This document shows positions 14,863 to 35,027 of a stretch of DNA of 64,000 bases, one piece after another. The DNA is from Deltaproteobacteria bacterium (GTDB lineage Bacteria > Desulfobacterota > Desulfomonilia > UBA1062), in the NCBI GenBank assembly GCA_029552245.1, contig JAKPDW010000053.1, positions 1-64,000 on the forward strand. The letters are read 5' to 3'. Made by a program: the position numbers and the translations under genes. Numbering within the stretch: position 1 is the stretch's first letter; each line of letters begins with the position of its first letter. The notes below the pieces were generated by a model. That model was given only the letters and a program-made list of their open reading frames with translations, did no database searches and had not been told where the DNA came from.

Positions 14863-17594
14863 CCCCTCGCGGCCTGCTGCCCGCCAGCTCTGTCGGCCGT
14901 CTTCTTGTCGTACCCCTCCAGTACGCGTCTGGTCTCGGGCTGGAGCAGGTCGACACTGGCGCCTGCCTCCAGCGCGTCTGTGAGGTTCGAGAGCGCATGC
15001 TCGTCGTCCGGCTTGATCGCGAGAGCTGCCTGGAAGCTCATGACGGCGGAGTCCACCTCCCCGAGCTGCCAGAGGGCCACGCCGATGTTGTTCAGGGTCT
15101 CGGTGTTCTTCGGGTCTATGGCGGCGGCGCGCTCGAATATCTTGAGGGCCCTCAGGACGTCACCCTCCTGAAACGCCGCCTCCCCCCACCGGTTGAGGAG
15201 GGAAACCTGGGCGGCCTTGTCCAGGTGCAGCCGGTAGACGTCATCGCTCACGAGGCTGACGACCCCTTCCCACTTCTTCAGGAAGTACGCGAGATTGGCA
15301 TCCATGGTGCGCCTGTGGTCGAGGGAGTTCACCTTGAACGTCATGGATCCGTAGTGGTGGACGAACACGTCGTGTGCGATGAGGTTCTTGTAGCCGGCCG
15401 CCACGGACCTGATGCAGAGGTCGTCGTCCTCGTAGTTGCCCGTGAGATACCCTTCGTCGAGGCCGCCGATGATGTCGAGCACCTCTTTCTTGACGAGGAG
15501 GCAGAAACCCACGAGCCTCATGAAGGGTTCCGCCCTGTGTGCGTTCCTCTTCCTGACCTGTGAGGCGAACTCGTGCATCCGCTGCATGTCCCGGCCATAG
15601 GACGCACCGTGGACGAGCTGCCTGCCCGAGACGGAGTTGGAGACCGGGCCCACCATGCCCACGTCCTTGTCTCTTTCCATGTGCCGGATCATCCCCCGGA
15701 GCCAGCCCTCGGTCACGACCACGTCGTTGTTGAGCAGCACCACGTAGTCGCCCTCGGCCAGCCGGATGGCCTGGTTGTTGCCCGCGGCATACCCGAGATT
15801 TTCCTCGTTCAGGACGAGCCTGACATGCTCGTGGGTCTTGGCGAACTCCTCCAGGAAAGCCCTCGTCCCGTCGGTGGATCCATTGTCCACGAGAATGATC
15901 TCGTGCGGCTCGGGCGTGAACGCCTCCACGCTCTCGAGGCACTGCCTGGTGTAATCCAGGCCGTTGAAGCACAGTACGATGATGGAGGTGAGGCCCGTGG
16001 GCAGAGGCTCCTCCTGGTCGTCCACGGGCCGTCCGTCGTCGTCCCCGATGTGGGACGGACTGCCTGGGACGGGCTCGTCGCCGAAGGAGCAGAAGAGATC
16101 ACCGGCCGCATGAGTGGACTGCAAGGCGAGCGTCGAGCCGGCAGCGGCCTTCAGGGTTTCCTCGGAAAGGCCCCACTTCTCGGAGAAGTATCTCCAGTCG
16201 GATTCGGCCTGTGTGCCGGGGGTCGCGCCTTCGCTCGCGGCGGTCTGGGCCGCTTCTTCCTGCGGCTCCTTCGGGCACGCGGCCTGGAGCCCCCGCTCGG
16301 AGGCTCGCATGACGTAATCGCACCACGCGAGGTGGTCGTCGTGGATCCTGGAGTCGAGGCCGCCCACCGCCTCGAAGGCCGTGTGGCGCACGATCATGAA
16401 GGGGAGGGGCCTTGTCGCCCGGCCTGCGGCGCCGGGAAAGGCGGGGGAATCCTCGAGCCGTGGCATGCGGGGCGTGACGACGTCCGCCTGGGGGTGTTCG
16501 AGGGCGTAGGAGACCAGCGAGCGGATCACCTTCGCATCCGCCGGGTCGAGGCGGCGGCAAAGGACGGCGAGCTCGCCCTCGCACACGGCCATGGCCCTGT
16601 TCCACAGCTTGACGCTGCGGTCCCCCCTTGTCGCCAGTACCTTTACCTTCCTTGGCCTGAGAGGGTCGTGCTGCATCTCGAGCAGGGCCATGGATGTGCC
16701 CTCGTGGAGATCGCTCGCGACCACCACGGTGTCGCCGGGTGCGTCTATGAACGAATCCAGCGCATCGAGGGCCTCGCGTATGTGCGTGTTGGGGAGCGAG
16801 CCCATGAGCACGGCCGAGACGTGCCCCCCGGTGAACCCCTTCATGTGAAGGAGCGAGGATTCTATCCTCTTCTGGATGGCGGAGGGGGACCACCTCTGTT
16901 CGACGTGCTTCTTTCCGTTTTTCGAGAGACGCGTCCACGAATCCCGGTCGAGGTAGAGCTCGATGACCTTCCTGGCGAATTCCTTCGGGTCGTCGGCTAT
17001 CATGGCGGTTACGCCGTCTTCGAGGTCCATGCCCTCGGCCCCTATCGTGGTGGTCACCACGGGAAGCCCCCAGGACAACGCCTCGCCCACCTTTCCCTTC
17101 ATGCCCGCACCATAGGTGAGGGGGCTGATGGAGATGCGGGCGTCTTTCAGGTAGGGTTCGAGGTCCTCGACATACCCCGTCACGATGAAGTCCTCGCTGT
17201 TGAGGCGCCGGATCTGGGCGGGAGGGTTGTTCCCCACGATGTACACCCTGACGCCGGGGAGACCCTTCCTGATGACGGGGAAGATCTTCTTGTGGAGGAA
17301 CAGGACCGCGTCGATGTTGGGCTTGTGGTTGAAGTTGCCCACGAAGAGCAGGTCCTTGGTCTGCTCGAACTCCTTGGTCCACGGAACCTCCTTGTGGATG
17401 TTCGGGACGACGTCGATGGGCTTGTTCACGAGCCCCTGGATGACCTTCTTGTCGTCCTCGGTCACGACCCAGATCCTGTCTCCCTCCTGGTAGACGGCGA
17501 GCTCTTGTTCCTTGTTTTTCAGCGCCTTCTCCAAGAGCGCCCTGTCCCTCTTCATCTCGGCCTCCCTGATCTCCCTGAGGAAGTGGATGTCCAC
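14859..17594 (-). CDS. Downstream part of an amber-interrupted glycosyltransferase (GT4 C-half, GT2, TPR)
   Basis: A 911-codon open frame in the same reading frame as the gene upstream (17628-19043), separated from it only by one TAG and 11 codons. It opens in the middle of a GT4 domain: FSPSSRVIIDTVDIHFLREI precedes and includes the nominal GTG start, then LLFVGNFNHKPNIDAVLF, IVGNNPPAQI and the donor-site block YGAGMKGKVGEALSWGLPVV (about 1-250). Next come a weak GT2-like segment (about 255-450), a clear GT2 domain (about 520-760: TSIIVLCFNGLDYTRQCLES, LVDNGSTDGT, LLNNDVVVTEGWL, GNYEDDDLCIR) and TPR repeats at the C-terminus. No ribosome site supports an independent start. This is probably a broken 1394-residue glycosyltransferase or a read-through product. 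Confidence 0.7.
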   Translation of the reverse strand: MDIHFLREIREAEMKRDRALLEKALKNKEQELAVYQEGDRIWVVTEDDKKVIQGLVNKPIDVVPNIHKEVPWTKEFEQTKDLLFVGNFNHKPNIDAVLFLHKKIFPVIRKGLPGVRVYIVGNNPPAQIRRLNSEDFIVTGYVEDLEPYLKDARISISPLTYGAGMKGKVGEALSWGLPVVTTTIGAEGMDLEDGVTAMIADDPKEFARKVIELYLDRDSWTRLSKNGKKHVEQRWSPSAIQKRIESSLLHMKGFTGGHVSAVLMGSLPNTHIREALDALDSFIDAPGDTVVVASDLHEGTSMALLEMQHDPLRPRKVKVLATRGDRSVKLWNRAMAVCEGELAVLCRRLDPADAKVIRSLVSYALEHPQADVVTPRMPRLEDSPAFPGAAGRATRPLPFMIVRHTAFEAVGGLDSRIHDDHLAWCDYVMRASERGLQAACPKEPQEEAAQTAASEGATPGTQAESDWRYFSEKWGLSEETLKAAAGSTLALQSTHAAGDLFCSFGDEPVPGSPSHIGDDDGRPVDDQEEPLPTGLTSIIVLCFNGLDYTRQCLESVEAFTPEPHEIILVDNGSTDGTRAFLEEFAKTHEHVRLVLNEENLGYAAGNNQAIRLAEGDYVVLLNNDVVVTEGWLRGMIRHMERDKDVGMVGPVSNSVSGRQLVHGASYGRDMQRMHEFASQVRKRNAHRAEPFMRLVGFCLLVKKEVLDIIGGLDEGYLTGNYEDDDLCIRSVAAGYKNLIAHDVFVHHYGSMTFKVNSLDHRRTMDANLAYFLKKWEGVVSLVSDDVYRLHLDKAAQVSLLNRWGEAAFQEGDVLRALKIFERAAAIDPKNTETLNNIGVALWQLGEVDSAVMSFQAALAIKPDDEHALSNLTDALEAGASVDLLQPETRRVLEGYDKKTADRAGGQQAARG

Positions 17595-17627: not shown

Positions 17628-17630
17628 CTA
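17628..17630 (-). other. In-frame amber codon inside the glycosyltransferase
   Basis: On the minus strand the frame reads ...HYLPLVR-TAG-FSPSSRVIIDTVD.... Both sides belong to one GT4 domain, and no frame change occurs. Related GT4 proteins recalled from family knowledge have a basic or charged residue here (R-K-x-SP). A single AAG-to-TAG change would explain it; a base-call error is the other simple explanation. Confidence 0.85.
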
Positions 17631-19043
17631 CCTCACGAGGGGGAGGTAGTGCCTGGCGATGTGCCAGAAGGAGAGGATCACGTAGTCGAAGCGCCTCGAC
17701 TTCAGTATCTTCTCCACGTCGAGATGAGGGGCCAATACGTCCGGCCAGAATTCCTGGAGCGCCAGGGGGTCTCCCGCGTAGACCTCGACGCCCATCTTCT
17801 GCAGGAGCGGCACGTACTCATCGGCGTGGTCCGGGCTGCGGGCTATGTAGGTCAGATGAAACCCCATCCTTTGAAGCGCCTTCATGATCTCGAAGAGCCT
17901 GAGAGAGCCGGATGCCCTGTCGTACATGGGCAGCAAGGGATCCACGATGAGCACGTGCCCCCGGCAAGAGACCGTGGGCGGCGTCTTGCCCCATGCACGG
18001 CTCAGGTGGACGATGTCCTTTCCCAGGTCTTTGCGGGGATGCCCGGAACAGGGCGTCGTGCCGGGGGCGTCGCCGGCCGAGGCCTGCATCTCCTCCACGA
18101 CCCCCTTGATCTTGAGCGCGTTGAACGTCCACCTATAGAGCATGCCGAGCTCATCCAAGAGCTCTTTTCGCCGCTCGGGCTTCACCCCTTCGTCCAGCAC
18201 CCTCTCGATGTCCTTGACCCGCTGGATCCTGTCATCGATGCCGAGCCTGGCGAAGGCCCACATGCGCTCGGCGTCCTCCACCATGCAGTACTTCCGGATG
18301 ACGGGGTCGGGGTGCATCCTGCTGAAGTGGTACTGGGACCTGCCCTGCTTGATGCACCGCTGGCAGAACTGCTCGTAGGTAAGCGGCCTGATCATGTAGC
18401 TCTTCGCGTTCTTGTTGTAGATGACCGTGAGGCCGTGTTTGGACAGGCGGTAGCCGAGCTCGATGTCCTCGGACCCGAAACGGAAGAGCTGGTTGAAGAC
18501 GCCGTGCCTCGTCAGGAAGGATTTCTTGCACGAGGACCTGCCGCCCCAGAAATAGGTGAAGTCCAGGATCTGGCCGTGTTCGAGGTTTCCGTACGAGAAC
18601 AGGAAGCCCCCTATGTCGGTCACGAAATGCATGAGGCGGTTCACCTCGAGCGAGGGGTGCCAGGTGGTGTACCCGAGCACGGCCACGTTCTCTTGGGGGT
18701 GTCGGGCGTGGGTGCGGACGTGTTCCTCGAGCAGGCGGGGATCGGCCACGTCGTCGTCGTCGAAGAAGAAGACGATCGGCGCCCTCGACATGAAGACGCC
18801 CATGTTCTTGGCCGCCGAGATACCGGAGTTTTCCTGGCGCTGGTAGCGAAGCGTCAGCCTGTCCGCGAAGCCTTCGCATACCTCCCTGGTGTTGTCGGGC
18901 GACCCGTCGTCGATGACGATGACCTCGAACCGGCCTTTCGGGAGACTCTGGGCGGTCAGGCTCTCGAGGGACTTCTCGAGCAGCTCCGCCCGGTTGTACG
19001 TGGGGATGACGACGCTGATGAGTGGCTTGTCTTCAGGTTTCAT
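17628..19043 (-). CDS. Upstream part of an amber-interrupted glycosyltransferase (GT2 plus GT4 N-part)
   Basis: 471 residues before the amber codon. Residues 8-270 are a GT2 domain: LISVVIPTYNRAELLEKSLE, VIDDGSPDNT, the DDDD metal site in FFFDDDDVADPRLL, and GSEDIELGYRL as the acceptor-side block. It is followed by a helical stretch and then, from about residue 355, the start of a GT4 (GT-B fold) domain: HVLIVDPLLPMYDRASGSLR through YVILSFWHIARHYLPLVR. The GT4 domain ends abruptly at TAG and resumes downstream. Its ATG overlaps the stop of the giant upstream gene (ATGA, 19040-19043), with GGAG 6-7 bases before it, so it is translationally coupled. On its own, the GT2 half could still be functional. 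Confidence 0.78.
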   Translation of the reverse strand: MKPEDKPLISVVIPTYNRAELLEKSLESLTAQSLPKGRFEVIVIDDGSPDNTREVCEGFADRLTLRYQRQENSGISAAKNMGVFMSRAPIVFFFDDDDVADPRLLEEHVRTHARHPQENVAVLGYTTWHPSLEVNRLMHFVTDIGGFLFSYGNLEHGQILDFTYFWGGRSSCKKSFLTRHGVFNQLFRFGSEDIELGYRLSKHGLTVIYNKNAKSYMIRPLTYEQFCQRCIKQGRSQYHFSRMHPDPVIRKYCMVEDAERMWAFARLGIDDRIQRVKDIERVLDEGVKPERRKELLDELGMLYRWTFNALKIKGVVEEMQASAGDAPGTTPCSGHPRKDLGKDIVHLSRAWGKTPPTVSCRGHVLIVDPLLPMYDRASGSLRLFEIMKALQRMGFHLTYIARSPDHADEYVPLLQKMGVEVYAGDPLALQEFWPDVLAPHLDVEKILKSRRFDYVILSFWHIARHYLPLVR

Positions 19044-22000
19044 ACCCGCTCCTCTGCGATGAGGTGTGCCTCGAGGACCGTGAAGCAGTCTTCGAGCGCA
19101 AGGTGGGGGTTGCCGGCGAGGTAGGCGTTCCTCTGCTCGTCCGCCTGGGACCAGTCATAATTGGCCACCGGCTTGCGGATGCTGTGGTCCACGCACACCG
19201 CGTCGATGATGCCCATCTTCAGGCCCCGCGTGAGGACCTCGCGGGCCCACACGTTCTCGTAGCCCCACCCCATGGGCGAGGTGAGGTCGAAGGGGAACAC
19301 GAAGTCGAAGGACGATCTGTGGAAGCTCACCACCGGGCCGATCTCCACGAACAGGGTCTGGCGCGCGTGGACCCCGATGTGCTGCTGGACGATGGGGTGG
19401 TCGATGTAGGAGTTCAGCGTGCGGGCCGGCTGCGCGACGGCGAAGCCGAGCCTTTCCTGCAGGCCGACGAACGAGTCCACGAACCCCTCGGGCAGGACCA
19501 CGTCGTCGTCGCACAGGATGACGTAGTCGTATCCTTTCAGGTCCTCCCCGGCCAGGAGGTCGTTTACGATCTGGAACTTGGGGAACCTCCCGGTGAGCTC
19601 CCTCACCGTCACCCGGGCCGTCGCGGCATCCGGGGCGGGCCCGTTCAGGGCCACCCACTTCTGCGTCACGTCGTGGAAGCGGGAGCGGCTGAACACCCCC
19701 ACGAGGTCGGTCACGGTGTTCAGGGTGTTCGCCAGGTAGATGCCCAGGACGAGCACCCTCCTCCGTCCTGACCCGGATACCGCCTGGAGGATCCCGGGTG
19801 CGAGCTCCCTCGGCCTCAGGGAGGCCAGCCTCCCCGGGGCGAGAGACAGTGATGCGGGTTCCTGTGCGCGGGAGGAAACCCCGTCGTTCGCAACGAGGAC
19901 GCACTGGGGCTGGTAGAGGATGCCGAACCCTCGCGAGACCATCCTGAGCCCGAGGTCCACCAGGGCGCACCCCAGGTGCTCGAGGCCCTCATCGAGGCCG
20001 TCCATGTCGTCCCAGGCCCGCCTGGACACGAGCATGGCGTACCGGGACCCCGAGCTCGCGAGGCAGGAGAAGGAGTATGCGGGGTCGTGCAGGACAGAGC
20101 CTTCGCCCCTTCCTTCAAGCCAGTCTTTGCCCGGCGACGAGGAGCCGGCCTCCACGATCAGGCCGTCCACGGTGACGGTCTTGCCCACCAGGGCGTCAAA
20201 GCCGTCCGACTCGTCGATGGCCTTCATGATCTCCGGAAGCCAGGTCTTGCTGAAGAGCACCGAGTCGTCCGTCAGGGCGAGGAACCTGCCGGAGGCCTTC
20301 TTCGCCGCCGTGACGCAGCGGTTGACCTCGGTGCATGGCCCCTCGGGAATGACCAGGGTGAGGCCATCGTTTTGAAGCCTTTCCAACCTGTCGGAGGCTT
20401 GGCCGCCTCCGGCTGGGGCCGCCACGATGAGTTCCACCCCGTGCCTGGGGAGGCCCCTGAGGAGGGACTTGACGCTGCGCACGGCACGGTCAGCGTCTTC
20501 ACTCACGCACATGACGATGGAGAGCGTGCATGGGGTGCGGACGGCTTCAGGCGCGTCCCCACCCGGCTTCCCCTTTGCCTCCCCGTGCTCGAAGGCCGCC
20601 TGCCCGCTTCCGGGAAGACACCCGGCACCGTAGATGGCCGGTGGGTTCTTCCGCCCCTTCGACTCATCCATGAAATCCGGGTTCTCCACCACCACGGTCT
20701 TGTCCGGGTCGTAGCCCGGCTCCTTCACGACCACGGAGAAGCAGTCGTTCAGCACGTCGCCGCCCCAGGCGAGGATTTCCTGGGACACGCACTTCAGGCC
20801 CGCCTCCAGGCAGAAGTCCCTGAACAGTTTCGCCGACATGTCCTCGCCCCGCCAGTGATCGTTCTTCACGGTGAGTTTGCCGGTGGTCGGGTCCAGGAAC
20901 GCGCCCATGTTGGAGTGGTGGAGGAAGGCCGCGCCACCGGGCTTGAGCTTGGCCGAGAGCTCGTGGAGGTAGGAGCGCATGACGTCTTTCTCCACGTGGA
21001 CCAGGGAGTCCCAGCTGAAGGCGAAGTCGATGGAGTCGTCTTCCAGCATGTCCAGGGACTTGCCGTCGTTCACGAAGCAGCGGATGTGGGAGTGGGCCTG
21101 GAAACGCTTCCTGCACGCCTCGATGCACTTCTCCGTGAGGTCCACGAGCGTGAGCTCGGAGCACTCCGGGACGAGGTACTGGGTGCACCTCCCGAACCCC
21201 GGGGCGATCTCCAGGATGTGCCCCGACGGCAGGAAGGAGGAGATGCGGGGCTTGATCGTCCTCTCCCAGAGCTGCCCTGTGCCCCCCCAGCATGCCGACC
21301 ACTCGTCGCCTGCCTCGGTCCACTCGTAGTTCGACCACTGTTCCCTGTTCTTCCTGATGGAGTTCGGGGTGTCCTCGCAGGTGTTCGCTGTGTCTTGGAT
21401 CGCGCCGTTGCCGACAGGTGCCCCACCCTCGATGCCGCCGTTGATCACAGCCCACAGGCGACCCGCCTCCTCGTCGGCCGGATGGAGCGATATCAGCGTG
21501 CTGCAGGTTGCGCGCGCGTCATCAGGCCTACCCATCTCCATGAAGAGCTCGGTGAGGTTCTTGAGCGAGGGGGCGTATGTGGGGTCGAGGTCGAGGGCCT
21601 TCTCGAAGCATGCACGGGCTTTTGACGCCTCGCCGGATGCGTGGTACATCGCCCCCAGGTCGTTGTGAAGCACGGCGTTATCCGGGTCATTGGCAACGGC
21701 GCGCTCCATGGCGGCGATGGCCTCTGCCAGCATGCCCTGCTCGAAGAGCCTGAGCGCCTCCTGACCGGGCGCCTCGGTTGATCCCGGGGTATGTTCGTTA
21801 AAGACGAGCAGATCGCCGAAGAAGACTCGGGATGTGTCCCGCTTGGCGAGTTCATGTTCCACGATGCCCTGCAGGGTGCGCAGGGCATCCTCATCGGGCG
21901 GGTCGAAGATGTTCTGCCAGGGGTAGGGCCCGCGGATACGCTGGAACGAGGCCTTGAACCCCCTGGACAGGGCGAGATCGATGAATGCCGGGATGGACCT

Positions 22001-25000
22001 GTAGTTCTCGCGCATCACCGTCATGTTCAGGGTTATGGAATCGAATTTCTCCCGGTTCTTTTCGATGAGGGCAAGGCTTTCCAGGAGGTCTTCCCAGACA
22101 CCGCCCCTGCGGATCGTCTCGTAGGTCTTCTTGTCAGCGGCATCGATGGAGACCAGGAGATCGCCGAAGTTCTGATGGCGGATGCGGTCCCAGAATCGGG
22201 GAAGGAGCAGGGCGTTGGTGATGAGATCGAACTTCAGGTGGCCGAGCTCTTCGTCCATGAGCAGGGCGCGTGTGTCCGGCCGGGCGAGGGGGTCTCCGAA
22301 ACCGGACATGACGATCCTCCGTGCAGCGGGAAGGTGTCTCCGCAGGTCGTCCGTGGTCTTCGCGAGCATCACGGGATCCTCGCGATGGAGGAACCGGGAA
22401 CACATGATGCACGAGAGGTTGCAGATCTGGGAGTTGTCCAGCTTGAACACGAGCGGGGTGGAGTCCAGTCGCGTTCTACCCTGCCTGATCTCCTCGGCCA
22501 GCTGCGCGGTGACGAGATCGCCCGCCTCGAGCTCATCGTAGCGATGAAGTCTTCCGGTCTTCTCATGGGTGATCACGTGGGGGCAGAACCAGTTGCAGAT
22601 CTCCTCCCACTTCCCCTCGTACATCTTGGCCCGGATCCATCGGGCCTGCTCGCTGTTCCAGGTGTCCGCGATGGTGGAGGCCCCAAGATCCCCGATCTTC
22701 ATCTTGATCCAGTCCGGACAGGCGCAGTTGTACACCCCCAGGAACGAGAGGGTCATGGTGGTGAACGGCATCAGGCACATGACGCCTTCGGGTCTCTGCC
22801 GGGAGAAGGTTCGTGCACGTGCGTGCGCAGAGGAATGAGAAAGATCGGGTTCTTCAGTCTCACCGAGCTCCTTTCGGACCGTGTTCCACAGCGATGACGC
22901 CTCCGCGTCGTCTGGATGGATCGACAGCAGTCTCTGGCATGTCTCGCTGGCCTTCCCGATCTGACCGCTCTCCAAGAGGACCTCGGTGAGGTTCTTCAGG
23001 GCGGGTGCGTATTCGGGGTCGGCCTCGAGGGCCTTCTCGAGGCTCTCGATGGCCTTCTCTGTATCGCCCAGGGCATGGAGCACCGCGGCGAGGTCGTTGT
23101 GGTACTCGGGGTTGGAGGGGTCGGCCTCGAGCGCCTGGACGAGCCTGTCTCTCGCATCCGCAGGTTTTCCCTGGCTGAAGAGGAAGGACCCGTAGTGGTG
23201 GAGGGTGGCGGGCGAGTGCGGGTCGTGGGACAGTGCGGCCTCGAAGAGCTTCCGGGCGAAGTCGGCCTCGCCCTTGTCGGCAGCCTTCAGGGCCTTCTTC
23301 GTGAGGCTCTCGCAGAGCCTTGCGGGGTCATCCTCGTCGCGCGCCACGCGCCGCGTCGTCTCCAGGTAGGCCGTGCCGTGCTTGAGGTCCGGTTCGAGGT
23401 GGTTGCCCTCCGCCCACTCGTTCCAGGCGTTGATGAACACGATCCTCTCTTCGGGGGCGTTGGCGCACGCCTTGCGGACCGCGGACTCCAGCCACTTCCC
23501 GTAGAGTTCCGGGGTCGACCCGTGGAGGACGACCCCGTCCTTTCCCCGTCTCGGCGTGTTGTCCCAGGACGGGGTCACGCACGGGAAGCGCAGGTATCCG
23601 GGCTGGGGCTTGCTCATCATCCTTTGCACGACGTCCCCGTAGTCGTAGACGTGGAGGTCAGGGTACGTGTCGTCCTTCAGGCCCAGCATCGACCAGTCTG
23701 GCTGGAACTCCACCGCCGCGTCGAAGCCGAGCTCCGCAGGCGGCGTCTGCTCGTCGGCGAAGCTCTCCACCCTGCAGAGGTACAGGTCGGGAAACCCGGC
23801 CCTCTTGGCCTCCTTCCTCCACAGGGCGGCCGTTCTCGACGGGTCAGGCAGGCCTCCCGCCCGGTAGACGAGAAAGAGCGGCCTGCCGTGTATCTTGATG
23901 TACCTGGGGTCCTTGAACGCAGCGAGGAGCCACCTGATGTGAGCAAGGTCGTCCTCCTCGCCGTAGTCCTGCCTCATGAGGATCTTCTTGTCCCCGCCGT
24001 CCCAGACCCTGGTCCAGTTCTCGTTGGCCCAGCACAGGCAGAAGGGGAAGTCCGGCCTGCCCGAGGCGAGCACCTCGTCGAAGACCCTGTTCAGGAGGCG
24101 CCTGCCCTTGAACCAGTAGTGGTAGTAGCAGAAGCCCGAGATGCCGTGGCTGCGCGCGAGCTCGGCCTGGGCTTCCCTGGTCTCCGCGAGTCTGAGGTCG
24201 TAGAACCCGAGGTCTGCCGGGATATGTGGCTGGTAGTGGCCTTCGAACAGCGGCCTTGCCTTGGCCACGTTGGTCCATTCCGTGAATCCCTTGCCCCACC
24301 AGCGATCGTTTTCGGGGATCGGATGGTACTGGGGGAGGTAGAAGGCGAGGAATCGAACGGCCCGGTCTGCGGGCGCCGGCTGGTCTTTTCGGGGTTTCTC
24401 CATCGAAGTGCTCTCCGTGGTTTCTGGTGTGGCGACTGGGCGTCGTTTTCCCAATGTCTTCGATGCATCCTGCGTTTCCGGCAGTGCGCTGCGCCCGTCC
24501 TGCAGGAGATCCATGGCTGGTGTCATGAGGGCGTTGGTGCATGCCCGGGTATTACGGAACCTGTTCTGGATCAGGTCATCCGAAGACTCTGAACCTGTGT
24601 GTGCACAGTGGATGGGTGATGGGGATGAGTCCTTCGCGACGCCTTTGATGCGCTCGAGGGCCTCCTGGGCATCGGTGTCGCCGGGGTTCTGCCGCAGGAC
24701 TTCGGTATACTGTCTTTCAGCTTCCTTCAAGCGTCCCTGCGCCGCCAGGAGGTCCGCGAGGTTTCTGCGCGCGTCCAGCAGGGTGCGATCGAGATTGACC
24801 GCCCTGTAAAAGAGGGTGACGGCCCTGTCATGGTCGCCGTTCAGGTAGCAGAGCGTGCCGAGGTCATTGGTCAGTTCGGCGTCGCCCGGCGCCAGGGCGA
24901 CGGCCTTCTGCAGGAGTTCCACGGCCTGCCTGAGGTCTCCCTGCCGGTGCCTGAGCAGGGCGAGCTGGTGGAGTGCACGGGGGTCCGCAGGGTCCCGGGA

Positions 25001-28000
25001 CAGGGCCTTGTCCAGAAGTCCTTGAGCATCTTCCAGGCGCCCTTCTGCAAGGGCAGATCGGGCCTGTAATACGTATGCTTTCCCGGGCTTCTTTCCTGCA
25101 ACGGATGGCGATCGTTTTCTGCGGGTCGTGAGCATCCTTGCCATCCGGACCTTCCTCTTTCCCGACACATGGGCATAGAGGTCACGATAGGTTTCCAGGA
25201 GAGCATCGATCTCTTCATCCAGACCGGGTATCTGCGTCTGCATCGCTCCCCGCGCGAGGTCGTCCACGAGGGAAGGGGTGTTGATCAGATCGAGCATCTT
25301 TCCGGCGAGTGCATCGGCGTCACCCACGGGGATCCGGAACCCGTTGATGCCGTCCTGGACGATGAATGCACCGAAGAAGTCGGTGGCGATGACAGGCACA
25401 CCCAAGTAGATGAACTCCCTGAGTACCCGGTTGTAGGTATCGAAATAGGAGGGGACGATGCAGACGTCTATGGCTGCGGCAATGGAGGGGAGATCGCCAT
25501 CGGTGAAGGCCCCTTGATAGATGAATGACTCAGGGTGTGCCGACTGGAGGCGATCCAGCCATTGTTGGTACTCGGGGTTGACGATCTGGCCGTACACGTG
25601 GAAGACGAAGCCGCCTCTGCCGCAGACCCGTTCGAAGGCGCGCAGGGCTACGTCGATCCCCTTGCTGAACATGATGTTGCCGACAAAGGCGAAGTGAAGG
25701 ATCCCGCCGGGACGGCTGTTCCGTGCCGTGGGCCTGGGAAATGCGAAATCGAACCCCCGGGGGATCACCCGTGTTTTCTCGTGGGGGATGGGTATGAAAC
25801 GGGTAAAGTAGTCCCTGAACGGCTCGGAGGTGAAGACGACCATGTCCACGGCATCCCGGTACAGCCTCCGGACATAGGCGAAGCGGTCCTCGATCTTTTT
25901 CCCCACCGGGTGGGACTGGTTTTGGGGCGCGAGGTTGCGCAGGGCGGCTTCAGGGAGCGTTGCGAGGCAGTCGGCGCACGTGCCCGGGTTCTTCGGTCCC
26001 AAGCAGAGCCTTCCGTCCAGACCCGAGGAGAGGACCGGGTAGTCCTGGTGGCACAGTTCCTCGCAGTTGCACACGTTCCTGACAACGATGCATCCTCTTC
26101 TGGCAAAGATCTCCACGATCTCCGCCGGCATGTACACGTAGTCGTTGACCTGCACGACTTGCGGACAGAAGTCGTCGATGACGTCCTCGATGATTTTTCG
26201 ATACCAGGCGGTTGCATCCTCACCGGGCGCTGCGCAATAGGCATCGAATTTGTTCATGGCAGGGACCCTGTACAGGGTGAACCCCTCGCGGGGCTCCCTG
26301 CTGAAGTTGTCCTCGAGCTCGGGCGCCGGTATGAGAACCGCCGTCTCCACGCCCCTTCGAGCCATGCCCAGGGCGTGATGCAGGGTGGAAAGGGGGGTGC
26401 CGGAGCGCTCGATGGGGTACACGTTGTGGTTCACGTACAGCACCCTTGTCACCTGCCGGACGTCCTCGCGGGAGGCATCGTCCAGGGAGGTGTAGGGCTC
26501 GTCATGCGGCGAACGGTAGAGCACCTCGTCGATGAGTTTGAGGTTGTACCTCTTCATGCCGGCGACCCTGGCGACAAAGGTTTCCTGGCAGCGTCCCGGT
26601 GGGAGCGTCTTGTAGCCGCCCACGAGCCTGTACAGGTCTTTCCTGACGAGGAGCATGTCCGTGGGGATGCACAGGCCGACCGCCATGGCATCCGCCAGGT
26701 CGTCTTTCCTGGCGTACCAGTCCTTGAACAGGACCATCCCGGGTTCTTTCGCAGGGTCATGCACGGCAAGCTTGTGGCTGTAGAGGATGTCCGCATCGAA
26801 GTGGTCATCGATGGTGCTCTTGAGGATTCTTATGGCCTCGGGGTCGACGAGTTCGACGCCTGGACTGATCCACAGGATATACCTGCCCCGGGCTTGTCCG
26901 ACGGCCTGGTCCAGCACGGAGGCGTCCTCCCCGGGCGCATGCTCGAATGTGCGGACGGCGAATGCGGGGTTGGCAGCGATCCATTCCTTCACCGCATCCC
27001 TCGTGTCCCCCTCGCCCGGGTATGCAAGGACCAATTCGACGCCGGAGACATCCTGGCAGCCCAGGCTTGCCAGAGTTCTCATGGCCTGCCTATGGTCGGG
27101 GCCGACGGTGACGACCAGGGAAATGGCGGGTACATCTTGGCCGGCCGTTGCGTCTCCCCTCCTGATGAGGAGGTCGTCCCTGCCGATGTTGAGCCGGTAG
27201 TTTTTCATGGTCTCGTCCCAGAGGGGGTATTTCCTCCTGAGCCGTTCGAAGGATAGGGCCTGCTTGGCGAGCTTGTTCTCGAGATGGGCCTCGTCTGTGA
27301 CATAGTCGTGGTAAATGACCGGGGCAGGGGAGTAGATCTGCTTTCTCTTGTCCGGGTCGATGCTCAGCAGGCGGAAAGAGAGCTCGAGCCCGCCCCCCCC
27401 GAACCGGATCTCGTCGTCCCAGCCCCCGGCCTGGAAGAAGACGTCGGCGCGGTAGGTGGTGTTCCCCTCCACGTGGGCAAAGGTGGGGTATTCCGTATCT
27501 CCCACGTAGTAGTGGCCCTGCTGGTTGTTCAGGGGGTTGTCGGTCTTGGGCACGTAGAGTCCCCTGCAGGCGATGATGTCGTACTTGTCGAACAATTCCA
27601 GGTGGGCCCTGATGAGATTCTTCTCGGGTATCCCGTCATCCTCGAGGAAGAGGAGGATCGGTGCCCTGGAAAACGCTGCCCCGATGTTGCGGGCCAGGTA
27701 TGCACCGGTGTTCTCGTTCAGGCGCACCAAGGTGTCAATGAAGGGTTCGAGACAGGTGAATTCCCCCGGCTGTCCGCCGTTGTCCACGAAGATCAGCTCG
27801 AAGTTCTCCGAGCGTTGCTCCTGAAGGATCTGGAAGCTCCTGAGGTTGTCCGGGTGCAGCCGCCAGGAGATGACGATGACGGAGATCGTGGGATCCGTGA
27901 CGCGCCTCAGTTCTCTCACGTGTTCGAAATACCGTGCATAGATGTCATATTTGTGTGACCAGCCCTTCCGATCCAGAGCGTCTCTGAGCCTGTGCCCCTG

Positions 28001-30118
28001 TCGCCTGCGGGCATTGTCGTCGGTGGCGTCGAGGTCGGATGGAGAGACGTCGAAGGGTTTGTCAGTCTGTGGGTTCCTTGCGAACGTGTCGGTTCCACCG
28101 AGGACATGAGGGGAAGTGCATGTTCCTCCATGGCCCTCCGATACACCCTGTTGCGGGTCCAATTTGAACTTCTCGGCATGATCCTGCGGCCAATGGTTGC
28201 CGGGTCGTATCGTAAGGTTTCTTTGTCTTGCATACTCCACGAACCGCTGTGCTGCAGCCGCAATCTCTTTGCTGATGCGATCCCGTATGTGCAGATCGAC
28301 ATCCACCACGATGTCTCTCACCCTTGCCGAATCGCAGAGATCCAGAAACGGCTCCGCATCGTTGATGTTCCCCTCCTGCAGGATGAGCTTCACCGTGATG
28401 TTGCCTGACGTTTCCGAGGCATACTTCCTGATGTTCCTCCAGACCCGGTGGAAGTAATCCCTCCCCTTGATCTTCAGGTAGGAGTCCCGTGTGCCGGCAT
28501 CGGGGGTGAGGATCAGCCTCAGCTTTCCGGCATTCACTCCGGCGGCATAGATGTCCTTGTATACCGTGCCGTTGGACTGGACCACGACAGAATAGTTTCT
28601 GTCCAGCAGGAAAGCGATCAGGTCGTCCATGTCGGCATTGATGGAGGGCTCACCGTTCCCGATGTAGAACTCGGCGCCCGGCTCCAACAACCCTCCCTCT
28701 TGCAGGGTGGCCACGGCATCCATGATCGACTCTTTGGAAGTCGGCTGGTGTCTCCCGACCTTCTCCACGTATCCGCAGTGGAGACATTTCAGGTTGCACG
28801 CAAGCAAATGATTGAGATTCACGTGGGAGATGGAGATATCCCAGTTCCGGCGCCACCTCTTTTTCACGAACCGTGGACAGCCTGCACAGCCGCCGAACTC
28901 TTTGTTCATCCTCCTTCGGATGATCTCTCTCTTCCTCGCAATGATGTCAGCCGTGTTCAACGGGCCGCGGGAAAGGTCCGCAAGGATTCCCTCGTCTTGG
29001 ATGTAGCCCGGATAACAGCATGTGTAGACGAGGTTGTCGTAATAGAAGGCGATGGCGTTCTCTATGTAGGTGCAGCTCATGTATTCACCATCCGGAGGGA
29101 CGTCGGATAAACGGGCCGCCCCGGTTTTACCGGATTGTCCGGCGGTGAGATGGGCTGCCGATGAAGCTGTTGCCGCGGTGGAATGGATTACCTGACGCGC
29201 AGGGGTCATGAGTGACCGCAATCGCTCCTGTGATGCCTGGTCGACGATATCCGTGAAGTTGCTGAAGATGTCTTCTACAATATCATCATATGCCTTCCCG
29301 GTTCTTGCGGCTATTTCCTGGAGCGTTCGCGTGAAATGCATAATCACCTGGTCACGAAAATAGTCGGCATGGTGCGTCTCGCCGATCCTCTTGTAATAAC
29401 GGTGCATCCAAGCCCGGGTCACTCCATTGTGGTAGATCTGGCGGACCGGGTCCAAGCTCGACCAGATGGAATCCGAATGCTTCCGGTACACGGCGTCCGT
29501 GATATCGTCCATGTACTTGCCTTTGCCGTGCCTGCCCAGCAGAGAGGTGAAGAACTTGTCCCCGTTGTACACCTTGAACAGCTCTTCCGGGATCTCCTTG
29601 ACGATGTTGCGGAAGCAAAGGGTCAGAGTGAGGATCATGGCGCCCCTGATCAATTCCTCGGCGGACAGATCCCGCTTCAGGTCATCAGGCAGCTTGGATG
29701 CACTCACCAGTGCACCGTATTCGTCGACTATCCTGGCGTTGTGGTAACACAAGACATAGTCGGGGTTGGCTTCCAGGAAATCCACCTGCTTCTGGAGCTT
29801 GGCAGGATCGGTCCAGTAGTCGTCACCCTCGCACAGGGCGATATAGGTTCCCCGTGCCCGCGGTAACACGAACTCGATGAAGGGTTTCCTTCCTTTCGAG
29901 TACTGGTTCTCCGCCTGAAAGATGGGAACGATCAGGCCGGGGTGGTTCTCGGCATACTCCCGTATGATCCGGGGGGTGTTGTCCGTGGAGGCGTCATCAT
30001 TGATGATGATCTCGACGGGGAAGGTCGTCCTCTGTTCCAGGAAGGCATCGATGGTCTGACCGATGTACTTCTCGTGGTTGTAAGTTGTGCAGGCAATAGT
30101 CACGAGAGGTCTTTCCAT
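19040..30118 (-). CDS. Giant modular glycosylation protein: glycosyltransferases, two radical-SAM domains, methyltransferase, WbsX-like domain, TPRs
   Basis: One uninterrupted frame of 3692 residues from ATG 30118 (AGGGA upstream; a TTG at 30139 would add 7). Approximate modules: 1-265 GT2 (VTIACTTYNHEKY, CEGDDYW); 345-690 radical SAM with C441-x3-C445-x2-C448 (ACNLKCLHC); 744-990 GT2 (NENTGAYLARNIG, FLEDDG); 996-1218 GT2-like; 1223-1640 GT4 (SKGIDVALRAFERV, REFIYLGVPVIATD); 1681-1813 TPR; 1921-2259 WbsX/GH99-like (LAFYLPQYHPIPEND, FINAWNEWAEGNHLEP); 2260-2418 TPR; 2430-2770 second radical SAM (C2566-x3-C2570-x2-C2573); 2775-2893 TPR; 2922-3143 class I methyltransferase (HILEIAPGFGRCTQYL); 3198-3423 and 3451-3692 GT2-like (YVILCDDDVVLPEGF). 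It lies upstream of flagellin, divergently, so flagellin or surface-glycan decoration is inferred. The fusion of radical SAM enzymes into it is unusual. Confidence 0.85.
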   Translation of the reverse strand: MERPLVTIACTTYNHEKYIGQTIDAFLEQRTTFPVEIIINDDASTDNTPRIIREYAENHPGLIVPIFQAENQYSKGRKPFIEFVLPRARGTYIALCEGDDYWTDPAKLQKQVDFLEANPDYVLCYHNARIVDEYGALVSASKLPDDLKRDLSAEELIRGAMILTLTLCFRNIVKEIPEELFKVYNGDKFFTSLLGRHGKGKYMDDITDAVYRKHSDSIWSSLDPVRQIYHNGVTRAWMHRYYKRIGETHHADYFRDQVIMHFTRTLQEIAARTGKAYDDIVEDIFSNFTDIVDQASQERLRSLMTPARQVIHSTAATASSAAHLTAGQSGKTGAARLSDVPPDGEYMSCTYIENAIAFYYDNLVYTCCYPGYIQDEGILADLSRGPLNTADIIARKREIIRRRMNKEFGGCAGCPRFVKKRWRRNWDISISHVNLNHLLACNLKCLHCGYVEKVGRHQPTSKESIMDAVATLQEGGLLEPGAEFYIGNGEPSINADMDDLIAFLLDRNYSVVVQSNGTVYKDIYAAGVNAGKLRLILTPDAGTRDSYLKIKGRDYFHRVWRNIRKYASETSGNITVKLILQEGNINDAEPFLDLCDSARVRDIVVDVDLHIRDRISKEIAAAAQRFVEYARQRNLTIRPGNHWPQDHAEKFKLDPQQGVSEGHGGTCTSPHVLGGTDTFARNPQTDKPFDVSPSDLDATDDNARRRQGHRLRDALDRKGWSHKYDIYARYFEHVRELRRVTDPTISVIVISWRLHPDNLRSFQILQEQRSENFELIFVDNGGQPGEFTCLEPFIDTLVRLNENTGAYLARNIGAAFSRAPILLFLEDDGIPEKNLIRAHLELFDKYDIIACRGLYVPKTDNPLNNQQGHYYVGDTEYPTFAHVEGNTTYRADVFFQAGGWDDEIRFGGGGLELSFRLLSIDPDKRKQIYSPAPVIYHDYVTDEAHLENKLAKQALSFERLRRKYPLWDETMKNYRLNIGRDDLLIRRGDATAGQDVPAISLVVTVGPDHRQAMRTLASLGCQDVSGVELVLAYPGEGDTRDAVKEWIAANPAFAVRTFEHAPGEDASVLDQAVGQARGRYILWISPGVELVDPEAIRILKSTIDDHFDADILYSHKLAVHDPAKEPGMVLFKDWYARKDDLADAMAVGLCIPTDMLLVRKDLYRLVGGYKTLPPGRCQETFVARVAGMKRYNLKLIDEVLYRSPHDEPYTSLDDASREDVRQVTRVLYVNHNVYPIERSGTPLSTLHHALGMARRGVETAVLIPAPELEDNFSREPREGFTLYRVPAMNKFDAYCAAPGEDATAWYRKIIEDVIDDFCPQVVQVNDYVYMPAEIVEIFARRGCIVVRNVCNCEELCHQDYPVLSSGLDGRLCLGPKNPGTCADCLATLPEAALRNLAPQNQSHPVGKKIEDRFAYVRRLYRDAVDMVVFTSEPFRDYFTRFIPIPHEKTRVIPRGFDFAFPRPTARNSRPGGILHFAFVGNIMFSKGIDVALRAFERVCGRGGFVFHVYGQIVNPEYQQWLDRLQSAHPESFIYQGAFTDGDLPSIAAAIDVCIVPSYFDTYNRVLREFIYLGVPVIATDFFGAFIVQDGINGFRIPVGDADALAGKMLDLINTPSLVDDLARGAMQTQIPGLDEEIDALLETYRDLYAHVSGKRKVRMARMLTTRRKRSPSVAGKKPGKAYVLQARSALAEGRLEDAQGLLDKALSRDPADPRALHQLALLRHRQGDLRQAVELLQKAVALAPGDAELTNDLGTLCYLNGDHDRAVTLFYRAVNLDRTLLDARRNLADLLAAQGRLKEAERQYTEVLRQNPGDTDAQEALERIKGVAKDSSPSPIHCAHTGSESSDDLIQNRFRNTRACTNALMTPAMDLLQDGRSALPETQDASKTLGKRRPVATPETTESTSMEKPRKDQPAPADRAVRFLAFYLPQYHPIPENDRWWGKGFTEWTNVAKARPLFEGHYQPHIPADLGFYDLRLAETREAQAELARSHGISGFCYYHYWFKGRRLLNRVFDEVLASGRPDFPFCLCWANENWTRVWDGGDKKILMRQDYGEEDDLAHIRWLLAAFKDPRYIKIHGRPLFLVYRAGGLPDPSRTAALWRKEAKRAGFPDLYLCRVESFADEQTPPAELGFDAAVEFQPDWSMLGLKDDTYPDLHVYDYGDVVQRMMSKPQPGYLRFPCVTPSWDNTPRRGKDGVVLHGSTPELYGKWLESAVRKACANAPEERIVFINAWNEWAEGNHLEPDLKHGTAYLETTRRVARDEDDPARLCESLTKKALKAADKGEADFARKLFEAALSHDPHSPATLHHYGSFLFSQGKPADARDRLVQALEADPSNPEYHNDLAAVLHALGDTEKAIESLEKALEADPEYAPALKNLTEVLLESGQIGKASETCQRLLSIHPDDAEASSLWNTVRKELGETEEPDLSHSSAHARARTFSRQRPEGVMCLMPFTTMTLSFLGVYNCACPDWIKMKIGDLGASTIADTWNSEQARWIRAKMYEGKWEEICNWFCPHVITHEKTGRLHRYDELEAGDLVTAQLAEEIRQGRTRLDSTPLVFKLDNSQICNLSCIMCSRFLHREDPVMLAKTTDDLRRHLPAARRIVMSGFGDPLARPDTRALLMDEELGHLKFDLITNALLLPRFWDRIRHQNFGDLLVSIDAADKKTYETIRRGGVWEDLLESLALIEKNREKFDSITLNMTVMRENYRSIPAFIDLALSRGFKASFQRIRGPYPWQNIFDPPDEDALRTLQGIVEHELAKRDTSRVFFGDLLVFNEHTPGSTEAPGQEALRLFEQGMLAEAIAAMERAVANDPDNAVLHNDLGAMYHASGEASKARACFEKALDLDPTYAPSLKNLTELFMEMGRPDDARATCSTLISLHPADEEAGRLWAVINGGIEGGAPVGNGAIQDTANTCEDTPNSIRKNREQWSNYEWTEAGDEWSACWGGTGQLWERTIKPRISSFLPSGHILEIAPGFGRCTQYLVPECSELTLVDLTEKCIEACRKRFQAHSHIRCFVNDGKSLDMLEDDSIDFAFSWDSLVHVEKDVMRSYLHELSAKLKPGGAAFLHHSNMGAFLDPTTGKLTVKNDHWRGEDMSAKLFRDFCLEAGLKCVSQEILAWGGDVLNDCFSVVVKEPGYDPDKTVVVENPDFMDESKGRKNPPAIYGAGCLPGSGQAAFEHGEAKGKPGGDAPEAVRTPCTLSIVMCVSEDADRAVRSVKSLLRGLPRHGVELIVAAPAGGGQASDRLERLQNDGLTLVIPEGPCTEVNRCVTAAKKASGRFLALTDDSVLFSKTWLPEIMKAIDESDGFDALVGKTVTVDGLIVEAGSSSPGKDWLEGRGEGSVLHDPAYSFSCLASSGSRYAMLVSRRAWDDMDGLDEGLEHLGCALVDLGLRMVSRGFGILYQPQCVLVANDGVSSRAQEPASLSLAPGRLASLRPRELAPGILQAVSGSGRRRVLVLGIYLANTLNTVTDLVGVFSRSRFHDVTQKWVALNGPAPDAATARVTVRELTGRFPKFQIVNDLLAGEDLKGYDYVILCDDDVVLPEGFVDSFVGLQERLGFAVAQPARTLNSYIDHPIVQQHIGVHARQTLFVEIGPVVSFHRSSFDFVFPFDLTSPMGWGYENVWAREVLTRGLKMGIIDAVCVDHSIRKPVANYDWSQADEQRNAYLAGNPHLALEDCFTVLEAHLIAEERV

Positions 30119-30264
30119 ATCAGCTTCCCTGTCCCTCAAGTGGGTTTGCAGAGCTCCATGCCCGGCTCATGGAACGATCTCGTGGCCATTCGTCATCAAC
30201 CACCCATGGATAAAGACATATAGAGCTGTCGTGCATCATGGGCCTGCCTTTGTCTGCAATTTTT

Positions 30265-30280
30265 AGCAAGATACATGCCC
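30265..30280 (-). promoter_or_regulatory. Candidate sigma-54 promoter of the glycosylation operon
   Basis: On the minus strand, GGGCATGTATCTTGCT matches TGGCACG-N4-TTGCW at 10 of 12 defined positions, with GG and GC 10 bases apart. The predicted start near 30253 would give a leader of about 135 bases to ATG 30118. It would fit the frequent RpoN control of mid-class flagellar genes. Confidence 0.45.
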
Positions 30281-30507
30281 GCCAATGCCCTTAAAAATGC
30301 ATAATAATATCGATGGGATGGAAATCGTCGCGGGGGGTATTTGTCAATAAATTGACGGGCAGCCCTGCGCAACGTTGTCGTGAGCCCGGTAAACAACAAT
30401 GAACAACAAAAGGAAGGTCCGGACCTGGCGTCTGATGGAGCAGGGGTGTTTTGCCGCTTCCCGGTGCCTACCCGAGGACAGAATATAGAGGCGCGCAAGA
30501 AAAATGC

Positions 30508-30534
30508 TAAAGTTAACAAACGGAGTGACGATAA
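30508..30534 (+). promoter_or_regulatory. Sigma-28 (FliA) promoter of flagellin
   Basis: TAAAGTTA (30508-30515), an 11-base spacer, then GACGATAA (30527-30534). The FliA consensus is TAAAGTTT-N11-GCCGATAA, so each box differs at one base and the spacing is exact. The start of transcription would be near 30541, giving a leader of about 130 bases before the flagellin ATG. Confidence 0.88.
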
Positions 30535-30560
30535 GAGAGACTGTATGACCAAAAAAACCT

Positions 30561-30671
30561 AAAAAGGAGGTGAGGAAACAGGAGGTCTGATCAGTACCGA
30601 AAAACTGATCACAAATGAACACCCCGGCCACGGATGGTCGGAACCAAACAAAAATCAAGGAGGATTGAATC
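30561..30671 (+). promoter_or_regulatory. Flagellin mRNA leader with four GGA motifs and a hairpin
   Basis: The leader holds AAGGAGGTGAGGAAACAGGAGG at 30563-30584, a 7-bp hairpin TGATCAG/CTGATCA (30588-30611), and the real ribosome site AAGGAGG 8 bases before ATG 30672. Multiple GGA motifs, one in the ribosome site, resemble CsrA-controlled flagellin leaders. No start codon follows the first Shine-Dalgarno-like block. A five-codon frame MTKKT (30545-30562) precedes it. Confidence 0.5.
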
Positions 30672-31502
30672 ATGGCACTTCGCATCAACACCAACGTAGC
30701 GGCAATCAACGCACACCGTCAGCTCCTCGTCACCGAAGCCGGCATGAACAAGAGCATGGAGCGGCTCTCCAGCGGCTACCGCATCAACAAGGCGGCCGAC
30801 GACGCCGCGGGCCTCGCCATCGCCAACAGGCTCCGCGCCAACGTCAAGTCGCTCACGGTCGCATCCCGCAACGTGACAGAGGGCAAGGCGCTGCTGCAGA
30901 TCGCCGAGGGTTCGGCCAACCAGATCGAGAGCATCCTCGAGAGGATGAAGGAACTCGCCGTCCAGGCATCCTCGGCGAACGCGGGCACCGACCGCGACAA
31001 GCTGGATGCAGAGTTCCAGTCGCTCATCGATGAGATCGACCGCATCGTGGACGACACGAATTACCAGGGCACCAAGCTCCTCGACGGCAACTTCGACGGC
31101 ACGTTCCAGGTCGGCGCCATGAACGCGGCCGACTCGAGCGGGAGCTCCCAGATCAACATCGCCATCAGCGGCCTTGACACAACGACCCTCGGTATCTCGA
31201 CAGCGGCGGTCGACTCCGCGGCGCATGCCGACTCCGCCATCGGGCTCATCGACGATGCCATCAACACCCTGGCAGGCGTCCTCGGCGACATCGGCGCGAC
31301 CATGAACCGCCTCGACTACACCTACTCCAACCTCCAGGTGCAGATCGAGAACTTCTCGGCTGCCGAGTCCGTCATCAGGGACGTGGACATGGCCTCGGAG
31401 ATGGTGACCTTCACCAAGAGCCAGATCCTGCTCCAGGCCGGCACCGCCATGCTCGCGCAGGCCAACATGTCGAGCCAGGTCGTCCTGAGTCTCTTCGGGT
31501 AA
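30672..31502 (+). CDS. fliC: Flagellin
   Basis: A 276-residue flagellin, the filament subunit exported by the flagellar type III apparatus. The N-terminal D0/D1 (MALRINTNVAAINAHRQL, LSSGYRINKAADDAAGLAIA, NYQGTKLLDG) and the C-terminal D1/D0 (DVDMASEMVTFTKSQILLQA, ending SSQVVLSLFG) are complete. The variable centre (about 140-200) is short, so D2/D3 are essentially absent. It is rich in Ser/Thr (NAADSSGSSQ, DTTTLGISTAAVDS), which are candidate O-glycosylation sites for the neighbouring island; this is inference. The ribosome site is AAGGAGG with 8-base spacing. It is the first gene of a flagellin-flaG-fliD unit with a sigma-28 promoter. Confidence 0.97.
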   Translation: MALRINTNVAAINAHRQLLVTEAGMNKSMERLSSGYRINKAADDAAGLAIANRLRANVKSLTVASRNVTEGKALLQIAEGSANQIESILERMKELAVQASSANAGTDRDKLDAEFQSLIDEIDRIVDDTNYQGTKLLDGNFDGTFQVGAMNAADSSGSSQINIAISGLDTTTLGISTAAVDSAAHADSAIGLIDDAINTLAGVLGDIGATMNRLDYTYSNLQVQIENFSAAESVIRDVDMASEMVTFTKSQILLQAGTAMLAQANMSSQVVLSLFG

Positions 31503-32012: not shown

Positions 32013-33383
32013 ATGGCAACGTACATCTCGGGGCTCACTTCGGGGCTCGACTGGCAGTCCGTGATCTCTGACCTCATGGCCATCGAGCGCAGGCCCATCA
32101 CGCTCCTCGAAGAGAGGAAGACCGCGCTCGAGGCCCAGAAGTCGGCGTGGCGAGAGGTCAACACGAAGCTCAACTCGCTCATGTCGGCCGCCCAGGCCCT
32201 CTCCTCGAGCGACGACTTCGAGGTCTACAGCGGGCAGGCGGCCATAAGCGGATCGAGCAAGTCGGTGAGCGACATCCTCGACTACGCGGTGGGGACCAAC
32301 GCGAGCCAAGGCTCGTACTCGATCACCGTCAACAGGCTGGCCCAGGCGCAGAAGTTCGCAAGCGCCGCGTTCGCTTCCGACGACACGGAGCTCGGGATCT
32401 CCGGCACGGTCACGCTCAACGGCAGGGACCTGACGATCGACGCGACGGACACGCTCGAAGACATCCGGGACAAGATCAACGCCCTGAACTCCGGGGATGA
32501 CCCGGCAGGTGTGACCGCCTCGATCATCAAGGTCGCAGACGACGAATACCGGCTCACCGTGGCCTCCAAGGAGACGGGCGCATCCGGCATCGACATCGTC
32601 GACGGCTCGGGCGTGTTCTCCTCGGGCCTTGGCATGAACGAGACCGTCTCCGGCCAGGACGCGGAGATCGTGGTCGAGGGGTTCACGATCACGAGGAGTT
32701 CCAACCTGATAAGCGACGTCATCGCAGGCGTGACCCTGAACCTCAAGGGTGCGGACGAGAGCGCCACGATCACGCTCACGGTAAGCCGCGACAACTCGGG
32801 CGTAAAGGACAAGATAGAGAGTTTCGTGAGCGCCTACAACGACCTCATGTCTTACATAGACGACCAGAACACGCCCGCGGGCGACACCGAGAAACCCCTC
32901 TATGCGGATTCCTCGCTCGCCCAGCTGAAGAAGACGATCCGCAACGCCATCCTCTCCGGTGTGGACGGTCTCTCGTCCACGCTCGATCACCTGAGCCTCA
33001 TAGGAGTGAACATCGACAAGTACGGCAAGCTGTCCATCGACGACGACACGCTGGAAGGGTACCTCGAGACGAACTTCGAGGACGTGGTGAGCCTGTTCAG
33101 CGCGGACGGCCTCACCTATGAGACCACCGGCGTCGCCTCGAGGCTTGAAGAGGCCATAGACGCCATGACCGACAGCATCGACGGGTACGTGGTGACCAGG
33201 CAGGAATCCCTCCAGTCGCAGATGGACAAGCTCGACAGGAAGATCGAGGACATGGAGGAGCGTCTCGAGAGGAAACAGAAGGCGCTCGAGAGCAAGTTCG
33301 TGGCCATGGAGACCATGCTGAGCACGCTGCAGGCGCAACAGGACTGGCTCTCCAGCCAGATCAGCACGCTCGTATCGAAGTGA
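32013..33383 (+). CDS. fliD: Flagellar filament cap protein FliD (HAP2)
   Basis: A 456-residue cap protein that oligomerises at the filament tip and guides flagellin insertion. The N-terminal FliD_N domain (MATYISGLTSGLDWQSVISD, then helices to about 110) and the C-terminal FliD_C domain (about 220-440: VKDKIESFVSAYNDLMSYI, LSLIGVNIDKYGKLSIDDDT) are both clear. The C-terminus is a long coiled coil (residues about 395-435, LDRKIEDMEERLERKQKALE) ending in the D0-like helix. The size is normal, with a modest D2/D3 part. An SD-like purine run (GAAGAGGGGGAA) precedes the ATG. A strong bidirectional terminator follows. Confidence 0.95.
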   Translation: MATYISGLTSGLDWQSVISDLMAIERRPITLLEERKTALEAQKSAWREVNTKLNSLMSAAQALSSSDDFEVYSGQAAISGSSKSVSDILDYAVGTNASQGSYSITVNRLAQAQKFASAAFASDDTELGISGTVTLNGRDLTIDATDTLEDIRDKINALNSGDDPAGVTASIIKVADDEYRLTVASKETGASGIDIVDGSGVFSSGLGMNETVSGQDAEIVVEGFTITRSSNLISDVIAGVTLNLKGADESATITLTVSRDNSGVKDKIESFVSAYNDLMSYIDDQNTPAGDTEKPLYADSSLAQLKKTIRNAILSGVDGLSSTLDHLSLIGVNIDKYGKLSIDDDTLEGYLETNFEDVVSLFSADGLTYETTGVASRLEEAIDAMTDSIDGYVVTRQESLQSQMDKLDRKIEDMEERLERKQKALESKFVAMETMLSTLQAQQDWLSSQISTLVSK

Positions 33384-34563: not shown

Positions 34564-35027
34564 GTCGTCTCCGTTCGTGAATCCGCTCGATGGTGTTCCA
34601 TGAGATGATAGCACGTGGACGCGGGAAATGCATCCCCTGCCGCAGGGGCGGGCTCCGGCGTGACCCGCGCCTTCCATGCTGCAGCCCGGCAGGGGCTGTC
34701 CAGCCTTAAAACCCCGCCCTGCAAGGGTGACCTTCTCGTCGTGGACGGAAATCGACCAGGTTTGTGGAAGGATCGGGTCAGCTCCGCGCCGAACAGGTAT
34801 ACGACCCCGCAGACAGGGTCGTCTTGAACCGAGCCGGGTCGTGGACGCGCGAGAGGCAGCGGTCTTTGGAGACAACCCTCCCGGTTGCCGGGTCGAGAGC
34901 GGCCCGACGCAACCTACAGGCAGCCTGCGGGTCGAGGCTCTCGATCCGCGAGTCGATTCCGGGCTTGACGAGGCGCGAGCATCCAAGGCAGAATACTTGG
35001 CACCATACCGAGATCGAAGGGTTGTCT

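Follow-up and report, generated by a model that had tools for sequence, protein, structure and literature searches.

The window analysed here covers 64,000 nucleotides (positions 1 to 64,000 of contig JAKPDW010000053.1, assembly GCA_029552245.1) from the draft genome of a Deltaproteobacteria bacterium (3.27 Mb, 95 contigs, 99% complete). Its minus strand contains a single open frame of 3692 codons with zero N (19040–30118), which begins with an ATG at 30118, just 5' of which lies the purine-rich GAGGGACAGGGA, and ends with a stop at 19040. An alternative TTG start is located at 30139; the residue numbers used below follow the ATG and are seven less than those of the TTG frame. The encoded protein has 3692 aa, a molecular mass of 413.9 kDa and a pI of 5.7. 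Divergent from this gene, as reported in a preliminary description of the sequence, lies a gene for a 276-aa flagellin (30672–31502, plus strand; PF00669/PF00700), which is accompanied by a gene for the filament cap protein FliD (32013–33383, plus strand; PF07195/PF02465). GC content drops to 0.55–0.59 at 27000–31000, a region comprising the N-terminal modules and the flagellin, versus about 0.64 in most of the window. In the 628-aa protein encoded at 34676–36562, the first 345 residues are without any Pfam match, and a beta-keto acid cleavage enzyme makes up the C-terminal part.

A random frame as long as the giant gene has a probability of about 10^-44 per start at 63.5% GC. Since GC3 is 0.74–0.92 in all blocks of the frame, and differences from relatives are concentrated at third codon positions in each comparable module, the frame is coding throughout; the uninterrupted reading frame first described is thus borne out from ATG to stop. 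Judged from the sequence, each module with a relative is under selection. There is no evident membrane segment, as the most hydrophobic 19-residue stretch of the protein (1.94) belongs to the GT4 domain.

Modular anatomy of the giant protein

The modules, all encoded on the minus strand, are arranged in the order GT2a-rSAM1-GT2b-GT2c-GT4-TPR1-WbsX-TPR2-rSAM2-TPR3-methyltransferase-GT2d-GT2e. Pfam matches over the cut-off comprise GT2 (in two stretches), GT4, WbsX, Radical_SAM (in two stretches), methyltransferase and the TPR blocks, in agreement with the multi-domain content proposed earlier, while the glycosyltransferase modules, previously put at four or five at least, number six when GT2c, GT2d and GT2e are counted. 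Catalytic motifs are intact in nearly all modules. GT2a (29150–30118; PF00535; 61% to genome G007 and 55% to G014) contains the motif EGDD, and GT2b (27110–27907; PF00535, 43 bits; 59–62% to G014 and G007) contains EDD. GT2c (26450–27112) is a probable degenerate GT-A domain at a likely fusion seam, with SPGVE at the expected DxD position and no acidic DxD; it has no Pfam match and no relative in the family search. The GT4 glycosyltransferase (25070–26452; PF13692/PF00534; GT-B fold; 53–56% to G023 and G160) has D-x7-E where E-x7-E is usual. GT2d (19865–20587), part of the constant core, is a GT-A domain with a weak Pfam match and the motif TDDS. GT2e (19043–19864), the most conserved part of the core, has the motifs DDD and GWGYEN and no Pfam family over the cut-off; as its predicted structure is weak (pLDDT 56.5), its provisional assignment to GT-A follows from these motifs and from weak Foldseek matches, all with E above 0.001.

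The WbsX domain (23285–24367; PF14307, 475 bits against a gathering cut-off of 25.1) contains the sequence NEWAEG as part of the motif NEWxEG...EP shared with GH99 and GH71, its similarity to GH99 being below significance (PF16317, 13 bits against a cut-off of 33; PDB E = 0.076). The class I SAM methyltransferase domain (20600–21409; PF13649; 69–71% to G013 and G303) contains the motif EIAPGFG. Three TPR blocks were identified by Pfam (TPR1, 24560–25042; TPR2, 22820–23284; TPR3, 21410–21772), the second matching the third at 48%. The segments without support from any relative are GT2c (residues about 1003–1223) and TPR1 with the linker between GT4 and WbsX. When the genome collection was queried with half of the protein, the result was swamped by WbsX relatives.

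The rSAM1 module (27920–29122) has N-terminal twitch-like cysteines (C-x17-CC...CxxC) followed by a CxxxCxxC core, and in rSAM2 (21770–22822) an N-terminal twitch/SPASM domain (PF13186, over the cut-off) precedes the radical SAM core. The two CxxxCxxC centres (C441/445/448 and C2566/2570/2573) lie exactly where they had been placed, and both cores keep the glycine motifs (GNGEP and GFGDP). The four twitch cysteines of rSAM2 are invariant or nearly so among 16 sequences, and rSAM1 aligns with rSAM2 across twitch and core in a profile alignment (probability 99.5). The best PDB match of the 16-sequence rSAM2 profile is BtrN; its core and its twitch domain each align with their counterpart in rSAM2, as two distinct segments whose order is exchanged. 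BtrN shares the CxxxCxxC core and the four-cysteine auxiliary-cluster domain with both modules; however, this domain follows the core in BtrN, whereas in rSAM1 and rSAM2 it is N-terminal to the core and the whole is fused into a megaenzyme. The score against the N_Twi_rSAM model NF033640 (84.9 bits) is under the curated cut-off of 170. rSAM2 gave a good AlphaFold2 model (pLDDT 87.8), whose comparison places BlsE first in Foldseek and DesII among the best in VIA-align 2. As many matches are tied (SuiB, DesII, NifB, MoaA, BlsE), a substrate cannot be named from the fold by itself. BtrN is absent from the fold matches listed, perhaps because a sequential aligner is unable to follow the permutation. 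The nearest solved relatives of these modules include BtrN, which acts on an aminocyclitol, and BlsE, which acts on a sugar nucleoside. BtrN catalyzes the two-electron oxidation of its substrate, with the auxiliary cluster as the likely electron acceptor (PMC9012708). By analogy with the family, our best guess is that rSAM1 and rSAM2 oxidise a sugar hydroxyl, ahead of epimerisation or dehydration. Radical chemistry on a sugar, as suggested in the preliminary description, is thus upheld at the level of the twitch-type family, but a BtrN-like two-electron oxidation is better supported than the dehydration or epimerisation named there.

Downstream genes and the interrupted GT4 domain

The product of the giant gene is probably a soluble, cytoplasmic megasynthase of flagellin glycans, composed of core and tailoring modules, and the gene is followed on the same strand by three others. 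The first (17628–19043), with a 4-base overlap with the giant gene, encodes a GT2 domain and the first half of a GT4 domain and ends in an in-frame TAG; the second (14859–17594), in the same frame, encodes the second half of GT4, then GT2 and TPR; the third (13219–14862), encoding a GT2-TPR protein, is the end of the apparent operon. As these GT2, GT4-GT2-TPR and GT2-TPR genes carry parts of the core in relatives, the giant protein is only part of the line and is predicted to belong to a two- or three-protein system. The one-protein assembly line first envisaged is therefore only partly borne out, as the line continues in the downstream genes.

The first two downstream genes are one uninterrupted frame in eight relatives, and the TAG at 17628–17630 interrupts the GT4 domain, the alignment continuing beyond it in the same frame. 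No obvious ribosome-binding site lies upstream of the GTG at 17594. Pyrrolysine was rejected as an explanation of the TAG, as no PylS was found over the cut-off in the source genome and the aligned residue is variable. The codon represents either a base error or the loss of a core enzyme in the source strain, where the glycan line may be broken, as the TAG cuts a core gene. A decaying locus, with an intact giant gene and a pathway that is dead because the core GT4 carries a stop codon, is unlikely: a stop within a domain unbroken in eight relatives, no PylS to read it and a GTG without an obvious ribosome-binding site all fit such decay, but the giant gene is undisrupted and keeps its coding bias throughout, and a single-base sequencing error would explain the TAG equally well. 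A flagellin glycan megasynthase is the reading preferred here.

Flagellin neighbourhood and related loci

A gene for flagellin or for a member of its family is found close to the core in the window and in G023, G322, G388, G160 and G303, which covers all five of the phylum families with readable surroundings, and also at L038 (G013 and G018 are left out of this count, as their contigs cannot answer the question). By a crude model, the chance of such a five-family linkage is about 4e-10, although full independence of the families would be lost if the locus were transferred in one piece. In G322, the unfused core sits between fliC and fliD. The neighbouring gene of G160 and of G303 encodes a divergent protein of the flagellin family, which could be FlgL instead of flagellin. 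G004, from the same genus as the source genome, encodes a related flagellin (L161:8991–9791; 54–60% identical, by method) and FliD, and contains no match to the island modules in the 20 kb examined. Gene neighbourhood in several families thus lends good support to the tie between the giant protein and flagellin glycosylation already drawn from the window, with the 276-aa flagellin as the likely acceptor.

No match to PF01973 (MptE/Maf) was found in the whole source genome, so another flagellin transferase would be needed if the flagellin is modified. Of the genes scanned beside the giant gene in the window, none was for nucleotide-sugar biosynthesis; a DegT aminotransferase gene lies beside the locus in G160 and G014. 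It is rather improbable that the locus makes another surface polymer (O-antigen, capsule or exopolysaccharide) and lies beside flagellin by chance. WbsX, the EpsD-like GT2 and the GT56 of G160 are typical of polysaccharide clusters; however, five families share the proximity to flagellin-family genes, and the downstream genes scanned include no flippase, polymerase or exporter.

In relatives of the same family, the modules keep their order and are distributed over different genes. G014 encodes GT2a-rSAM1-GT2b in 1190 aa, G023 encodes GT4-WbsX-GT2d-GT2e in 1502 aa, G013 encodes rSAM2-TPR-methyltransferase and, on a separate contig, GT2d-GT2e in 505 aa, while frames of 2560 aa and 2769 aa in G017 and G009, respectively, contain other module sets. 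Two members of other families of the phylum have giant frames of their own. The single frame of G160 (L139:2850–13700; 3616 aa) has the order GT56, B12-binding radical SAM (B12-rSAM), GT4, WbsX, TPR, rSAM2, B12-rSAM, TPR, GT2d, GT2e, and that of G303, which runs off its contig after at least 3274 aa, has the order phosphodiesterase, GT2, rSAM2, rSAM-SPASM, TPR, methyltransferase, GT2d, GT2e. In G303, the type I phosphodiesterase/nucleotide pyrophosphatase domain (L140:12440–15319) adjoins GT2. Shorter and less fused forms are found in G322 and G388. The constant core consists of GT2d-GT2e, then the GT2-GT4-GT2 gene, while the tailoring modules, which across relatives include rSAM, B12-rSAM, methyltransferase, phosphodiesterase and other glycosyltransferases, are exchangeable. 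The GT2e core domain is rare yet spread over families, occurring in five of 395 sampled phylum genomes and additionally in G013, G018 and G023. A transposase gene (rve integrase core; L105:7473–8294) lies between flagellin and the glycosyltransferase fusion in G023 and is a possible route of module exchange.

That the 3692-codon frame is an assembly chimera of separate genes is highly improbable, since, although the genome is a draft of 95 contigs and the GT2b-GT2c-GT4 junction and TPR1 linker are found in no relative, most junctions recur in independent assemblies (GT2a-rSAM1-GT2b in G014, GT4-WbsX in G023 and G160, WbsX-TPR-rSAM2 in G160, rSAM2-TPR-methyltransferase in G013, methyltransferase-GT2d-GT2e in G303), the same design is seen in two other single frames, one of 3616 aa and one of at least 3274 aa, the region is without long near-identical direct repeats, and a join of separate genes would, in addition, need to preserve the reading frame. 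The giant frame is thus probably no artefact.

Proposed function and known systems

In the proposed mechanism, the core (GT2d-GT2e, then GT2, GT4 and GT2 of the next gene) would lay down and extend the basic glycan, which would be placed on flagellin in the cytoplasm before export. GT2a, GT2b and GT4 may add further sugars from nucleotide donors, rSAM1 and rSAM2 may use radical chemistry to oxidise a sugar or alter it in some other way, methylation or capping may fall to the class I methyltransferase, and the GH99-like active site of WbsX may add or rearrange a sugar. By analogy with O-GlcNAc transferase, the TPR blocks may serve to hold flagellin; they may also set the order of the modules. 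In Aeromonas, flagellin glycosylation is cytoplasmic and takes place before export (PMC4065374), and a giant protein without a clear membrane segment would fit the same arrangement; sequential transfer onto flagellin likewise fits a soluble protein with several glycosyltransferases, encoded in a genome that lacks a Maf match.

A bolder and decidedly tentative idea is that the locus is a glycan assembly line resembling modular NRPS and PKS, in which a flagellin-priming core and exchangeable radical, methyl and transfer modules would act in order on a TPR-held chain; lineages would differ through the gain, loss, fusion and splitting of modules, and gene order would spell the glycan. If so, protein glycans could arise on covalently linked megaenzymes that include radical tailoring, much like polyketides and peptides, glycan-building modules would be readable from sequence, and enzymes of the N-terminal-twitch rSAM type would gain a likely substrate class. 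Less fused cores, such as that of G322, make the assembly idea testable with small proteins.

Glycosyltransferase genes beside flagellin, the mark of a flagellin glycosylation island, are found in the window and in its relatives, and such islands are known, e.g. from Geobacillus (PMC5109656). As in the islands of Geobacillus, Aeromonas and Enterobacteriaceae, GT2/GT4 and tailoring genes lie beside flagellin with variable content; the known islands, however, consist of separate genes of ordinary size, often with Maf, whereas up to six glycosyltransferase modules are joined here with rSAM, WbsX and TPR in one protein. A literature search conducted largely outside subscription journals found no paper linking radical SAM modules to flagellin glycosyltransferases, and the literature searched contained no family in which glycosyltransferases are fused to twitch rSAM, WbsX and TPR modules that are reshuffled from lineage to lineage. 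In domain content, the giant protein can be likened to WsaE, a soluble trifunctional enzyme of S-layer glycan synthesis with two glycosyltransferase domains and a methyltransferase (PMC2943079), as both have at least two glycosyltransferase domains and a methyltransferase per polypeptide; WsaE, in contrast, is without rSAM, WbsX or TPR modules and acts on a lipid-linked S-layer glycan.
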